A stretch of DNA of 64,000 nt from Acidimicrobiia bacterium. Its GTDB lineage: Bacteria; Actinomycetota; Acidimicrobiia; Spongiisociales; ZC4RG35. Of this stretch, positions 19,124 through 47,187 are shown piece after piece. Under the pieces are notes generated by a model, which did no database searches, was not told the DNA's origin, and worked only from the letters and a program-made list of their open reading frames with translations. The stretch's first letter is position 1, and each line of letters starts with the position of its first letter. Made by a program: the position numbers and the translations under genes. Where the stretch lies: contig JANQOU010000006.1 of NCBI GenBank assembly GCA_028285585.1, positions 372,001 to 436,000 of the forward strand, given 5' to 3'.

Positions 19124-19156
19124 TGCATTGAGACACCCCCGCAACCCGCAACCCGC

Positions 19157-19949
19157 AACCTCAGGTAATACCGACCGTATGCGGGCCCCATAGCCTCATC
19201 TACACCGAGCCTCGGCTGGGGCATTGGTGCCGGCTGGTGCCGGCTGAAGCTGCAACCCCTACTCGATCAGCCGCCGACGCGGTTCATGCTCAACAGCACC
19301 TGCTCGACATCCTGCGGGCTCCAGGGCGGGTAGAACACCATGGTGTAGAGGTCGCAACGCTCACCGGGCTGCTCGAACCATCCAGCAACCCAAGTGCCGT
19401 CCGGATGAGGACCCACGGCGGCCCGTGTCCCATCGATCTCGACCTCTCCCTTCTCCCCCGGCCAGTCCACGGCAGGGAGGGTTCCGCGAATCAGCGCAAT
19501 CGCAACGGTGCCGTCGCTACGTCCGATGAACGTCGTCCGGCTCCCCCCGACCGAAGTCCACACGTCGGGCTCCAGGTCCGACGGGTCGAATCCGGCCTGA
19601 TTGACGTTCACCGGGAGAAAACCGATCTCGTAAGGTGCTGCCGGACACTCGTCAACAGCCGCAGGGCGAGTGGTCGAGGTCGACGCCATCGGCGCGCTGG
19701 TCGTCGTTGACGGGGTCGTGGTCGTCCCGACGGATACCGCCGAGCAGCCGACAGCTACGAGCAACATCACTCCGGCCAGTTTCCACATGCCGGCGATGAT
19801 ATGGAGAGGGCAGGAGTTTCCCAGGAACCCTCGGTCACGTCGCAGCCCGAGGCTCGGTGTAGATGAGGCCATAGCGCCCGTGCCCTGGAAAGGGCACGGA
19901 GTTTCTGGCAGAAACTCCAACCTGATTTCATCAGGCATTACCTGAGGTT
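19157..19949. repeat. Dispersed repeat element copy 2 (gene-bearing): terminal inverted repeats AACCTCAGGTAAT / ATTACCTGAGGTT
   Basis: Left end 19157-19169, right end 19937-19949; inner perfect 23-bp inverted repeat 19193-19215 / 19847-19869; shares about 55 nt of exact right-end sequence with 29139-29301. Confidence 0.75.
19267..19788 (-). CDS. Lipoprotein of unknown function, located inside the repeat element
   Basis: MWKLAGVMLLVAVGCSAVSVGTTTTPSTTTSAP lipobox plus Thr-rich linker; longer ORF start in track (19938) runs into the repeat. Confidence 0.65.
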   Translation of the reverse strand: MWKLAGVMLLVAVGCSAVSVGTTTTPSTTTSAPMASTSTTRPAAVDECPAAPYEIGFLPVNVNQAGFDPSDLEPDVWTSVGGSRTTFIGRSDGTVAIALIRGTLPAVDWPGEKGEVEIDGTRAAVGPHPDGTWVAGWFEQPGERCDLYTMVFYPPWSPQDVEQVLLSMNRVGG

Positions 19950-19962
19950 CGCAGTTGGGGGG

Positions 19963-29126: not shown

Positions 29127-29138
29127 CCCCCAACCTGC

Positions 29139-29301
29139 AACCTCAGGTAATACCGCCCGTATCTGGTCGCTATGGCCTCAGGTTGAAACGCGGCGAGCCA
29201 ACTGGAGGTCATAGGGCCCGCATTTGGGCCGGTGCCCTGAAAGGGCATTGGAGTTTCTGGCAGAAACTCCAACCTGATTTCATCAGGCATTACCTGAGGT
29301 T
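29139..29301. repeat. Dispersed repeat element copy 1 (compact, 163 bp)
   Basis: AACCTCAGGTAAT (29139-29151) ... ATTACCTGAGGTT (29289-29301); inner stem 29170-29185/29199-29214; hairpins GGAGTTTCTggcAGAAACTCC and CCTGAtttcaTCAGG; shared with 19157-19949. Confidence 0.8.
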
Positions 29302-29306
29302 CGCGG

Positions 29307-31148
29307 TCAGGGGGTGAGGGTGGTGAGGATGCGGTTGACGACGGAGTCTGGGTCCATCCCCACCGACTCCATCACATCCGCTGCCGAACCGAAGGGCAAG
29401 AAACCGTCGGGCACGCCGACATGGCTGAACTTCTTGGCCACCCCTGCCTCTGCGAACATCTCGGTCACGGCTGAGCCGAATCCACCGGCAATGACGTTGT
29501 CCTCGAGGGTGACCACCAGGGGTGCCTCCGAGCACCACTCGACGATTCGTGGGTCAAGAGGCTTGACCCAGCGGGCGTTGATCACCCCGGCGTCCACACC
29601 TCGCTCCACCAGATCGGCTGCCGCCTTCTCCGCGATCTCCACCATCCGGCCCACCGCCACCAGCATCACATCTGATCCAGACGACAGCTTCTGAGCGACA
29701 CCGACCTCCAGCGCCTCCACCGGCAAGGAGGGCACCGAGACGGCACCGCCTTTCGGATAACGGATCGCGATAGGGCCGTCATGGTCGACAGCCGTCTCGA
29801 TCATGGCGCAAAGCTCGGTGGCGTCAGCTGGGGCACCAACAGTCAGGTTGGGGATCATCCTCAGATAAGAAAGGTCGAACACGCCATGATGGGAGGGCCC
29901 GTCTGGACCGGTCACCCCGGCCCGGTCGATCAGGAAGGTCACCGGCAGGTCATGAAGCGCAACATCTGCGTTGATCTGGTCGAAAGCGCGCTGAAGGAAG
30001 GCCGAATAGATGGCGACCACCGGCTTCTTGCCGGCCATGGCCATTCCCGCGGCAAGCGTCACCGAGTGCTGCTCAGCTATCCCGGTGTCGAAGACACGAT
30101 CTGGGAAGCGCCGCGCCATCTGCTTGAGCCCGGCGGTCGACACCATTGCCGCCGAGACCGCATAGACATCCTCGTCACGGGCCGCTGCCTCGGCTAGAGC
30201 CCTTCCGGCCACCTCGGTCAGCTTCAACTCCGACTTCAGTGCCTTGCCGGTGGCGATGTCAAAGGAGCCGACACCGTGCAGCTTCTCCTCCTCGTCTTCG
30301 ATGGCCGGCTGATAGCCGTTCCCCTTCTCGGTGACGACGTGAACGACCACCGGCTCGGTGAAGGTCTTCGCTTGCTCGAGAGTCTCCTCGAGAAGCTTGA
30401 TGTCGTGACCGTCGACAACACCTGAATACTTGAGGTCGAGTGCGTCGAACACAGTTGACGGCTCGAGAATCTGCTTCACCGCGTCTTTCATCCGGCCGGC
30501 CATCTCGTCAGCCGACTCGCCGACGACGGGAATTCCCCGCAGCATCTTCCCGATCGCCTTCTTGGTCTTCTCGTATCGGGGATCGATGCGGTAGTGAGCA
30601 AGGGTTGCCAGCCCCCCGACAGTCGGCGCATAGGACCGGCCGTTGTCGTTGAGCACGATGATCAAGCGCTCGGGCTTGGTGACGGCGATGTGGTTCAGAG
30701 CCTCGTAGGCCATCCCGCCGGTGAACGCCCCGTCGCCAATAACTGCAACGGTCCACCCGTCGTACCCGGCTAGCGCATGACCCACCGCATAGCTCAACGA
30801 TGTCGAAGCGTGACTGTTCTCGACGAAGTCGTGTGGCGACTCGTCCCGGCTTGGATAGCCGGATAGGCCGCCGGTGTGCCTCAGCTGATCGAACTCGGTG
30901 GCTCGGCCGGTGAGGATCTTGTGCACGTAGGCCTGATGTCCGACATCCCATATGAGCCGGTCCTTCGGCGAGTCGAACACCCGGTGGAGTGCGATGGTCA
31001 GCTCCACAACACCCAAGTTGGGGGAGAGATGCCCACCGGTTTTGGAGACCTTCTCGAGGATGAAGGTCCGGACCTCGTCACACAAGACTTCCAAATCGTC
31101 GTGTGAAAGGCTCTTCAGATCTGAGGGTTGGGAGATCGATTCGATCAT
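29307..31148 (-). CDS. dxs: 1-deoxy-D-xylulose-5-phosphate synthase
   Basis: SKTGGHLSPNLGVVELTIALHRVFDSPKDRLIWDVGHQAYVHKILTGR; SHHGVFDLSYLRMIPNL. Confidence 0.98.
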   Translation of the reverse strand: MIESISQPSDLKSLSHDDLEVLCDEVRTFILEKVSKTGGHLSPNLGVVELTIALHRVFDSPKDRLIWDVGHQAYVHKILTGRATEFDQLRHTGGLSGYPSRDESPHDFVENSHASTSLSYAVGHALAGYDGWTVAVIGDGAFTGGMAYEALNHIAVTKPERLIIVLNDNGRSYAPTVGGLATLAHYRIDPRYEKTKKAIGKMLRGIPVVGESADEMAGRMKDAVKQILEPSTVFDALDLKYSGVVDGHDIKLLEETLEQAKTFTEPVVVHVVTEKGNGYQPAIEDEEEKLHGVGSFDIATGKALKSELKLTEVAGRALAEAAARDEDVYAVSAAMVSTAGLKQMARRFPDRVFDTGIAEQHSVTLAAGMAMAGKKPVVAIYSAFLQRAFDQINADVALHDLPVTFLIDRAGVTGPDGPSHHGVFDLSYLRMIPNLTVGAPADATELCAMIETAVDHDGPIAIRYPKGGAVSVPSLPVEALEVGVAQKLSSGSDVMLVAVGRMVEIAEKAAADLVERGVDAGVINARWVKPLDPRIVEWCSEAPLVVTLEDNVIAGGFGSAVTEMFAEAGVAKKFSHVGVPDGFLPFGSAADVMESVGMDPDSVVNRILTTLTP

Positions 31149-37619: not shown

Positions 37620-37651
37620 GTGGAGTGGGCCCTCATGAGGGCCCACTCCAC
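37620..37651 (-). terminator. Perfect palindromic hairpin between pstS and pstC (attenuator-like)
   Basis: GTGGAGTGGGCCCTCATGAGGGCCCACTCCAC, 16-bp arms. Confidence 0.6.
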
Positions 37652-44334: not shown

Positions 44335-44966
44335 TCGTCGCCATCTACCCCGCCGAGATATCCGAGGGGTTGTCCGACGGGCTGACATTGGCGTCGGCTA
44401 CGACCCAGCCTTTGCCCGAATTGGATCCTGAGACAAACGAGCTGGCGGAAGCCGACCTTGTCGTTGTCGAGCTTGGGGATCAGCCGATGCGGCGGCTTCG
44501 AGAGTTGGACCGGGTGGGTGAGGCGCTGGGCATTCCCATAGTCGCGATCGCCCAGCCCGATCAGCTTGTTCTGTTGGAGAGCGCGACATCGGTCAGCGAC
44601 TTCCTGGTGACTCCGATCGACCCCGTGGAAGTCCGTCTTCGGTTGATCCGCCTGACCAGCTCGGAATCGACCACCGACCTGATCCGTTTCAAGGATCTCG
44701 AGTTGAACCCCCTCACCTATCAGGCCTTGTTGGGCAGTGATGCCATGGACCTCACCTACATGGAGTGGGAGTTGCTGCGCTTCTTGGTAGAGAACCCGGT
44801 GCGGGTGTGGAGCCGCGAGCAGCTTCTCTCCCGCGTGTGGGGCTACGAGTATTACGGCGGTGCCCGCACCGTCGACGTGCATGTGCGACGGCTCCGGGCC
44901 AAGCTCGGCGAGGAGCGGTCGTCGTGGATAACGACGGTCCGCTCAGTCGGCTACCGCTTCGGCTGA
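44331..44966 (+). CDS. OmpR-type winged-helix regulator with atypical receiver domain (GlnR-like)
   Basis: TTG start overlapping glnA stop; C-terminal NPLTYQALLGSDAMDLTYMEWELLRFLVENPVRVWSREQLLSRVWGYEYYGGARTVDVHVRRLRAKLGE; receiver has VVVELGDQ at the usual phospho-Asp position. Confidence 0.8.
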   Translation: MIVAIYPAEISEGLSDGLTLASATTQPLPELDPETNELAEADLVVVELGDQPMRRLRELDRVGEALGIPIVAIAQPDQLVLLESATSVSDFLVTPIDPVEVRLRLIRLTSSESTTDLIRFKDLELNPLTYQALLGSDAMDLTYMEWELLRFLVENPVRVWSREQLLSRVWGYEYYGGARTVDVHVRRLRAKLGEERSSWITTVRSVGYRFG

Positions 44967-44968
44967 CC

Positions 44969-45013
44969 TGCGTGTGCAGAAAGGAGTACTGCGTACTCCT
45001 TTCTGCACACGCA
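44969..45013. repeat. Palindrome copy A flanking DUF559 gene
   Basis: TGCGTGTGCAGAAAGGAGTAC-tgc-GTACTCCTTTCTGCACACGCA, 21-bp perfect arms. Confidence 0.9.
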
Positions 45014-45055
45014 CAAGGGGGTTGATCTGGTTCGGGGCAAGGTCGACGATGGGCC

Positions 45056-45976
45056 ATGAACCTCGACGCAAAGCTGGCCGGTCTCTCGTCGCGCCAGAAC
45101 AGGGCCTTTAGCCGACAGCAGGCGCTGGCAACCGGCTTCAGTCGCCAGCAAATCGAACATCGGCTGGAGTCAGGAGTTTGGACGCAGCTAGACACCCAGA
45201 GCTATGCGATCGCCGGAGCCCCAGCTACCTGGGAGCGACAACTCCGGGCCGCAATCCTGAGCCGGCCGACCGCCTACGCCGCGGGCCGAAGTGCAGCTGT
45301 ACTTCACGAGTTCCCCTTCTACAGCCGGTCCAAACCGGAGATAGTTGTCCCATTTCCGGGCAACGCCCGATCGCCAATCGCGAAGGTCATCCGCAACCGA
45401 TACTTCGAAACCGTGGAGAAGGTTCATGTCAAAGGCTTCCCGGCGACCTCGGTGGCAGAGACAATTTACACGCTGAGTCAGCGTGAGCCGAGACAGATGA
45501 TCGAACGACTCATAGACGATCAACTAGCGAGCCGAAGCCTGAAGATCGAGGACTTCGACGTCATCCTCGACCGCCTGGCAGATGCGAGAGTGCGCGGATT
45601 ACCGGCTCTGAGACGTGCCATCGCTGCTCGCGACAAGGATGGCTACCAGCCTCCCACATCGGAGCTGGAGCGACTCCTCTATCGACTTCTCGACTCGCCT
45701 GAACTGCCCACAGTGAGCCATCAAGTCCCTTTGAGGTTGCCAACAACGGCAGCGAGAGTCGATGCCTTCATCAACGACTGGGGCCTGATCATCGAGGCGG
45801 ACGGCCGTCGATGGCACACGAGGGAGCAAGACTTTGAACGGGACCGAGAAAGAGACAACGCGGCCACGGAAGCGGGACTCGCCATCATTCGCTTCACTTA
45901 CTCGATGTTGAAGCGTGAACCGGCCAAATGCCTAGACACGGTGCTCAAGGCCGGCACCTGGCGCCGATCTGCGTGA
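45056..45976 (+). CDS. AbiEi-like N-terminal domain plus DUF559 (Vsr-like endonuclease fold) protein
   Basis: N-terminal LSSRQNRAFSRQQALATGFSRQQIEHRLESGVWTQLDTQSYAIAGAPATWERQLRAAIL; C-terminal RVDAFINDWGLIIEADGRRWHTREQDFERDRERDNAATEAGLAIIRFTYSMLKREP. Confidence 0.82.
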   Translation: MNLDAKLAGLSSRQNRAFSRQQALATGFSRQQIEHRLESGVWTQLDTQSYAIAGAPATWERQLRAAILSRPTAYAAGRSAAVLHEFPFYSRSKPEIVVPFPGNARSPIAKVIRNRYFETVEKVHVKGFPATSVAETIYTLSQREPRQMIERLIDDQLASRSLKIEDFDVILDRLADARVRGLPALRRAIAARDKDGYQPPTSELERLLYRLLDSPELPTVSHQVPLRLPTTAARVDAFINDWGLIIEADGRRWHTREQDFERDRERDNAATEAGLAIIRFTYSMLKREPAKCLDTVLKAGTWRRSA

Positions 45977-45980
45977 GCTT

Positions 45981-46019
45981 GTGTGCAGAAAGGAGTACTG
46001 AGTACTCCTTTCTGCACAC
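45981..46019. repeat. Palindrome copy B flanking DUF559 gene
   Basis: GTGTGCAGAAAGGAGTACT-g-AGTACTCCTTTCTGCACAC, 19-bp perfect arms; 41-nt core differs from copy A by one base. Confidence 0.9.
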
Positions 46020-46023
46020 GCTT

Positions 46024-47187
46024 ATGCTGAGTTCGATGGGCTTCAAGACGAAACAGGTGCACGCCGGGGTAACACCGGATCCGATCACAGGCGCGATCCT
46101 CACGCCAATCCACCAGTCGACGACTTTTGTCCAAGAGTCCGTCGACGAGTACATGGGCCGCGGCTACTCCTACGCGAGAGCTGGCAACCCGACAGTCAAA
46201 GCGTTCGAGGACAAGATCGCAGCCCTCGAGGGAGGAACTGCCGCTACCGCCTACGGCTCGGGGATGGCAGCAACCGTCGCCGTCTTCCTCGCTCTGCTCG
46301 AGGCCGGCGATCACATGGTGATAGCCGACGTGGTCTACGGGGGCACTTACCGGTTCGCCGACCAGTTCATGAGCAAGCTGGGTGTAGATGTCGACTTCGT
46401 CGACGCAGCTGACGTCGACGGCATCGCAGGGCTGCTCAGACCCGAAACCAAGCTGGTGTTCACCGAGTCACCGGCCAATCCCACCCTCAAGGTCACCGAC
46501 CTGGCAGCCGTCTCCGAGTTGTGCCGCGACCGCGGGATTCTTCACATCACCGACAACACATTTCTCACGCCCTACTACCAGCGGCCGTTCGAGCTTGGTG
46601 CGGACGTGATCATCCACTCCACCACCAAGTTCCTCGACGGCCACAACGCCACGCTTGGCGGGGCGGTTGTGGTCAACGACGACGAGCTTCAACAGAAGGT
46701 GGAATTCGCACGCATCTCGGCAGGCCTCGTGATGTCTCCGATGATTGCGTGGCTGACTCTTCAGGGCACCAAGACGCTGAGCGTGCGGATGGACGCACAG
46801 TCAGAGAACGCCATGAAGGTCGCCGAGTGGCTGACTGATCACGCCAAGGTCGACTATGTCAACTACCCCGGATTGCCCGGCCACCCTCAACACGAGATAT
46901 CCACCAAGCAGGCCTCTGGCTACGGAGCGATGGTTTGCTTCGAGGTGCACGGAGGCGTTGAAGCCGGCAAGAAGCTGATGAATGCGGTCGAGCTGTGGTC
47001 ACTCGCTGAGAATCTCGGGTCGGTCGAGTCACTGATAACCCACCCGGTGACGATGACACACGCCGCCATCCCCAGAGACGAGCGACTTGCGGCCGGAATC
47101 ACGGACGGCCTGGTCCGGTTGTCTGTAGGCCTGGAGGACGCCGAGGACTTGATCGATGACCTCGACGAGGCCTTGAACCGCCTCTAG
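46024..47187 (+). CDS. metB: Cystathionine gamma-synthase / PLP-dependent trans-sulfuration enzyme
   Basis: MGFKTKQVHAGVTPDPITGAILTPIHQSTTFVQES, YSYARAGNPTVKAFEDKIAALEGG, HSTTKFLDGHNATLGGAVV, NLGSVESLITHPVTMTHAAIP. Confidence 0.93.
   Translation: MLSSMGFKTKQVHAGVTPDPITGAILTPIHQSTTFVQESVDEYMGRGYSYARAGNPTVKAFEDKIAALEGGTAATAYGSGMAATVAVFLALLEAGDHMVIADVVYGGTYRFADQFMSKLGVDVDFVDAADVDGIAGLLRPETKLVFTESPANPTLKVTDLAAVSELCRDRGILHITDNTFLTPYYQRPFELGADVIIHSTTKFLDGHNATLGGAVVVNDDELQQKVEFARISAGLVMSPMIAWLTLQGTKTLSVRMDAQSENAMKVAEWLTDHAKVDYVNYPGLPGHPQHEISTKQASGYGAMVCFEVHGGVEAGKKLMNAVELWSLAENLGSVESLITHPVTMTHAAIPRDERLAAGITDGLVRLSVGLEDAEDLIDDLDEALNRL

Follow-up and report, generated by a model that had tools for sequence, protein, structure and literature searches.

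An AbiEi-like/DUF559 nuclease gene paired with its own dispersed palindromes in Acidimicrobiia: a probable REPtron-like unit

Dispersed palindromes and the systems described to date

The closest described counterparts of the locus reported here are the REPtrons, in which a RAYT (TnpA_REP) is associated with REP, BIME and REPIN elements (PMC3733652, PMC6006769). Palindromes dispersed without a Y1 partner gene are also on record, namely the CGTC-tagged REPs (PMC3733652), while in the AbiE type IV toxin-antitoxin systems AbiEi and Rv2827c bind 23-bp inverted repeats located in their own promoters (PMC7319586).

As in REPtrons, we find here one gene per repeat family, with the repeats flanking the gene; they are intergenic, lie near 3′ ends and occur alone or in inverted pairs. 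One genome harbours several families, and the gene is mostly vertically inherited. The enzyme, however, is a DUF559 nuclease of the PD-(D/E)xK/Vsr-like type joined to an AbiEi-like domain, and not a Y1 HUH transposase; moreover, the GTAG tag is missing and the palindromes are longer and near-symmetric. Y1_Tnp (PF01797) has no match in the genome, which rules out a Y1 transposase as mobiliser and implies that the locus is not a member of the REPtron family, though it probably works like one.

CGTC-tagged REPs are alike in being dispersed without a Y1 partner, but here the sequence is another and a partner gene has been identified. With the AbiE type IV systems the locus shares the AbiEi-type N-terminal fold and inverted repeats beside the gene (PMC7319586), whereas it has a C-terminal nuclease domain, no adjacent gene for the nucleotidyltransferase toxin (AbiEii), and repeats both on the two sides and genome-wide. 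The EDxHD homing endonucleases (I-Bth0305I, PDB 3r3p) share the Vsr-like fold of the nuclease domain and its conserved acidic residues; yet the gene studied here lies outside any intron or intein, its putative recognition site is unsplit, each flank carrying a complete palindrome, and the palindromes have multiplied, not the gene. Integron cassettes, with IntI and varied cassette genes, come into consideration only through their attC sites, which are imperfect palindromes; the genes seen between repeats in the loci examined here are DUF559 genes. In the open PMC literature (preprints and subscription journals being outside this scope), nothing relevant was found on DUF559 together with palindromic repeats, homing or AbiEi. 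No known family has this pair of enzyme and repeat, the logic of which resembles that of REPtrons; hence we count the system as new, while by logic alone it could be called a REPtron variant.

We propose, with a probability of roughly 0.62, that the locus is a REPtron-like unit, composed of a Vsr/EDxHD-type nuclease gene and its cognate dispersed palindromes, in which the nuclease would copy the repeats elsewhere. The association of gene and repeat is very well supported, and the dispersal of the repeats by the nuclease is what we infer.

The locus and its nuclease

In the window (the whole stretch of 64,000 nucleotides analysed, from an uncultured Acidimicrobiia bacterium), an intact gene of 306 aa (45056..45976, + strand) is bracketed by two palindromes to which no strand is assigned: the upstream copy at 44970-45012 (GCGTGTGCAGAAAGGAGTACTGCGTACTCCTTTCTGCACACGC; 43 bp, 20-bp arms and a 3-nt loop TGC) and the downstream copy at 45979-46021 (core 45981-46019, loop TGA). 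The full 43-bp palindrome reads GCGTGTGCAGAAAGGAGTAC-NNN-GTACTCCTTTCTGCACACGC, its conserved ends being GCGTGTGCA..TGCACACGC, and the foot of the hairpin bears neither GTAG nor CGTC as a tag. Both copies had been seen by the first-pass annotation, and they are present as it stated: their 39-nt cores differ at one base, and dinucleotide shuffles of the window give a chance expectation of 0.00 for such a pair. They begin 3 bp past the stop at 44966 and 2 bp past the stop at 45976, in agreement with the 2-4 nt proposed earlier, and 43 bp separate the upstream copy from the start of the nuclease gene. By contrast, the second palindrome does not end 1-4 nt before the metB ATG, as had been thought, if the start is the one that aligns in relatives: metB probably begins at 46033, 11 bp past the palindrome, an in-frame ATG also existing at 46024. 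The upstream neighbour, which had been called GlnR-like, encodes a winged-helix Trans_reg_C domain; a GlnR_1st match is indeed present, but below cut-off.

The palindrome has no match in Rfam, and its exact sequence none in the GTDB r220 contigs and IMG/VR, which makes the exact sequence of this family (family 1) lineage-specific. Elsewhere in the window, GTGGAGTGGGCCCTCATGAGGGCCCACTCCAC at 37620-37651 is a perfect palindrome of 32 bp that has no relation to any of the three repeat families described below.

The architecture first suggested for the protein, a C-terminal DUF559 preceded by an AbiEi-like N-terminus, was confirmed. The N-terminal winged-helix part (approximately residues 1-171; 45056..45568, +) is matched by the PADLOC AbiEi profile over residues 6-171 and in its fold by AbiEi (6y8q) and Rv2827c (1zel); it is likely to be DNA-binding. 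The C-terminal Vsr-EDxHD-type nuclease domain (approximately residues 203-306; 45662..45973, +) is supported by profile and fold matches; the DUF559 profile (PF04480) passes its cut-off over residues 229-298. In the predicted structure (model mcb206a9320d6, mean pLDDT 93.9), the C-terminal part matches the homing endonuclease I-Bth0305I, NGO0050 and Vsr, and the N-terminal part AbiEi and Rv2827c; for I-Bth0305I (PDB 3r3p) against the nuclease domain, the TM-score is 0.83 by target length. Residues D236, E247, D249, H254, D263 and R266 are invariant in 57 homologues. No match was found for carriage of the protein by plasmids or phages, and four weak relatives are encoded on viral contigs. No AbiEii toxin gene stands beside the DUF559 gene, whose neighbours are the Trans_reg_C gene and metB.

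Repeat families, their anatomy and their distribution

The family-1 palindrome is dispersed over 14 places in the 2.59 Mb genome (12 found by pattern and two more by covariance model), against 0 matches for the reversed pattern. For most copies, a coding-like ORF ends with its stop codon no more than about 20 bp before the repeat; four copies stand between convergent genes, and no T-run follows the hairpins. Taken alone, this placement at 3′ ends would favour plain REPs or terminators. Likewise, palindromes occurring genome-wide without any link to DUF559 genes had been named from the start as what would refute a connection; 12 of the 14 copies are in fact far from the DUF559 gene, but the link held in the comparisons made, and it is on these comparisons, across relatives, paralogues and homologue loci, that we take it to be real.

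The genome contains three DUF559 genes, each flanked by a repeat family specific to it, and the repeats of the three paralogues bear no sequence relation to one another. The paralogue at C4:267330 has inverted copies of TTGCTATAGCAACTGGTCGCGCT on its flanks (29 genome matches), and that at C13:162261 is flanked by CCCTAYCGSNAACCTCAGGTAAT (family 3; 50 genome matches), with 0 matches for each reversed-pattern control. The dispersal of family 3 was predicted from the flanks of the C13 paralogue and then found by searching the genome, where many copies pair up in inverted orientation at a spacing of about 105 or 160 bp. Within the window, family-3 copies lie at 19147-19169 (+), 19937-19959 (-), 29129-29151 (+) and 29289-29311 (-), the last two forming a REPIN-like inverted pair with a spacing of about 160 bp. 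An extra segment, TGCCTGATGAAATCAGGTTGGAGTTTCTGNCAGAAACTCC...CCCTTTCAGGGCA, is common to some family-3 units (window 29220-29300; L356, L359, L363) and is possibly a nested second hairpin element.

A comparison of 37 copies from five genomes reveals conserved ends, a compensated stem and a free loop. The sequence of the outer 9 bp is conserved, whereas the inner 11 bp vary freely with pairing mostly kept: both partners have changed in 13 pairs, amounting to 109 cells as compared to 41 +/- 5 in shuffles. The relatedness of the copies inflates such compensatory counts, but sliding the partner strand, a control that retains this relatedness, destroys the signal. Among 12 close copies of the present genome the loop is hypervariable (16/36 loop positions deviate, vs 7/432 arm positions), and in G044, 31 copies vary almost solely at one loop dinucleotide. 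This anatomy fits an element whose ends would be recognised by a protein and which would need to fold as a hairpin.

Diverged versions of the palindrome were picked up in relatives with a covariance model, and several of these versions directly adjoin the closest homologues of the nuclease. At the glnR-like/metB junction, the gene and adjacent palindromic sequence are present in six genera (G000, G006, G012, G013, G027, G031), the copy on the glnR-like side being reduced to one arm in G013 and the contig ending inside the DUF559 gene in G031. That strains devoid of the gene keep one palindrome at this place, a point that the first-pass annotation had proposed to check, is true of G011, G024 and G029, which belong to genus g12 like G031, but not of G001, G009, G016, G017 and G020, in which neither gene nor palindrome exists at the junction. 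From this comparison, the gene looks vertically inherited at the junction and absent at times, with one palindrome kept. The pattern GCGTGAGCA..TGCTCACGC yields one extra site in G012 and no dispersed copies in G027, a genome with the gene and flanking palindromes for which none were found with the patterns used. In G026, the same junction (L112) carries a solitary hairpin with AACCTGAGGTT ends that resembles family 3, at a place occupied in other genomes by family 1.

AbiEi/DUF559 fusion genes recur in most of the Acidimicrobiia genomes examined, and the association extends well beyond this junction. We analysed 75 AbiEi/DUF559 loci from GTDB genomes, taking a flank repeat as present when the score of upstream vs downstream flanks exceeded the 99th percentile of within-locus controls. 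A repeat common to both flanks reached this level in 39 of the 75 loci, the remaining 36, many of them distant homologues, being without a detectable one; the glnR-like control genes gave 0/22 (maximum 31 vs a threshold of 39) and the neighbouring ORFs 6/128. Five of these six exceptions are probably the DUF559 gene itself, in loci where that gene was not central. The sixth, L172, is an apparently non-DUF559 ORF with strongly similar flanks (score 177). Most flank repeats are imperfect palindromes, 40-60 bp long, and the repeats differ between clades; two DUF559 genes, L087 (G007:C62) and L088 (G021:C247), have longer, tandemly arrayed repeats (GTCGACGGTG...) on their flanks instead, unlike the solitary palindromes.

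Repeat similarity tracks protein identity (Mantel r 0.64, 0/2000 permutations as high), a signal that comes mostly from pairs above 50% identity, so that only the within-genome paralogues set the association apart from host relatedness, and the covariation is partly shared host ancestry. As to the pairing that the first-pass annotation had proposed to check, palindromes do go with DUF559 genes across genera and paralogues of this subfamily, and the repeat sequence goes with the protein clade.

Copy number follows the gene as well. In genus g22, whose repeats are often dimers 71-73 bp apart, three genomes with the matching gene have 18, 22 and 39 copies of GAGTGTGC-N-GCACACTC, as opposed to 2 copies in a congener where the best DUF559 homologue belongs to a different clade. 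Repeat sites are, furthermore, polymorphic between congeners: G037 and G050 (about 90% DNA identity) have most sites in common, while some exist in only one of them (L233 vs L311; L221 vs L309), and one array has three copies in one genome and two in the other. Clean empty sites with target-site duplication, as expected of insertion sequences or MITEs with terminal inverted repeats, were not found among the congeners G037, G050, G044 and G057, whose flanks have locally diverged. Mobility of the gene itself was considered for the near-identical genes L165 and L168 of one MAG and discarded, as the two represent a single locus from two strains that differ in the number of palindromes in the array.

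Alternative readings and a possible mechanism

Three other readings deserve discussion, each of which fails at least one test. The one that survives best would see in the protein an AbiEi-like autorepressor, in the palindromes its operators, and in the scattered copies further regulated promoters. The binding of AbiEi and Rv2827c to the 23-bp inverted repeats of their own promoters (PMC7319586), the AbiEi-like N-terminus and a palindrome placed 43 bp upstream of the gene all speak in its favour. We nevertheless deem it improbable: a copy also lies behind the gene, most copies are just past stop codons and four are between convergent genes, array number and presence or absence differ between congeners, and the neighbours of the gene, the Trans_reg_C gene and metB, include no AbiEii toxin. 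The genes flanking the palindromes are not orthologous between genomes, one site excepted, and it is for this reason that we reject a regulon. The operator or toxin-antitoxin function initially entertained is therefore disfavoured in its pure form, autoregulation being possible as an additional role.

Less probable still is a homing-like unit, in which the nuclease would cut a lone palindrome and the gene would be copied in, leaving a palindrome on each side. The single gene-less palindrome at the junction in G011, G024 and G029 would suit such a process, as would the resemblance of the nuclease domain to I-Bth0305I, but those sites are equally explained by loss of the gene through recombination between flanking repeats. 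Besides, there is one gene per repeat family in spite of 14-50 intact sites, six genera keep the gene at a single junction, and both flanks carry whole palindromes, not halves. Spread of the whole unit, one of the possibilities raised at first, does not agree with a fixed gene and a palindrome that scatters without it. As to ordinary REPs or terminators lying next to DUF559 genes by coincidence or by attraction to poorly constrained DNA, strong hairpins at gene 3′ ends would be expected of them, but this is highly improbable given three paralogues each with its own flanking family, 39/75 DUF559 loci against 0/22 control genes, a copy number that follows the gene in g22, and hairpins with no T-run behind them.

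The REPtron-like reading, already glimpsed in the REP/RAYT-like option of the first-pass annotation, fits best in our comparison. The two-domain nuclease gene, which looks mostly vertically inherited, is flanked by its own cognate hairpin-forming palindrome, and further copies are scattered, solitary or paired, mostly at gene 3′ ends. The AbiEi-type N-terminal domain would recognise the conserved outer arms, for which AbiEi and Rv2827c offer a precedent, and the DUF559 domain may nick or cut the palindrome once it is extruded as a hairpin or cruciform, possibly close to the loop; a copy of the palindrome would then be set at a new place through repair or replication. The surviving copies would be those located where they are least harmful, directly behind stop codons, and each paralogue would drive its own repeat family only.

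In a broader perspective, on which we would lay even odds, these mobile palindromes could form a second class of the REP type, one that evolved independently and is common in Acidimicrobiia; the nuclease would recognise its cognate hairpin and spread it by cutting and repair, the loop would be rewritten at each event, and several non-interfering families would live in one genome. If so, REP-like systems would have arisen more than once with unrelated enzymes, and the AbiEi/DUF559 fusion genes would gain a function. Many bacterial genomes hold dispersed palindromes without a known mobiliser, such as the CGTC REPs (PMC3733652), and here a nuclease family is tied to repeats of this kind, which suggests an undescribed route by which bacterial genomes may acquire small repeated sequences.
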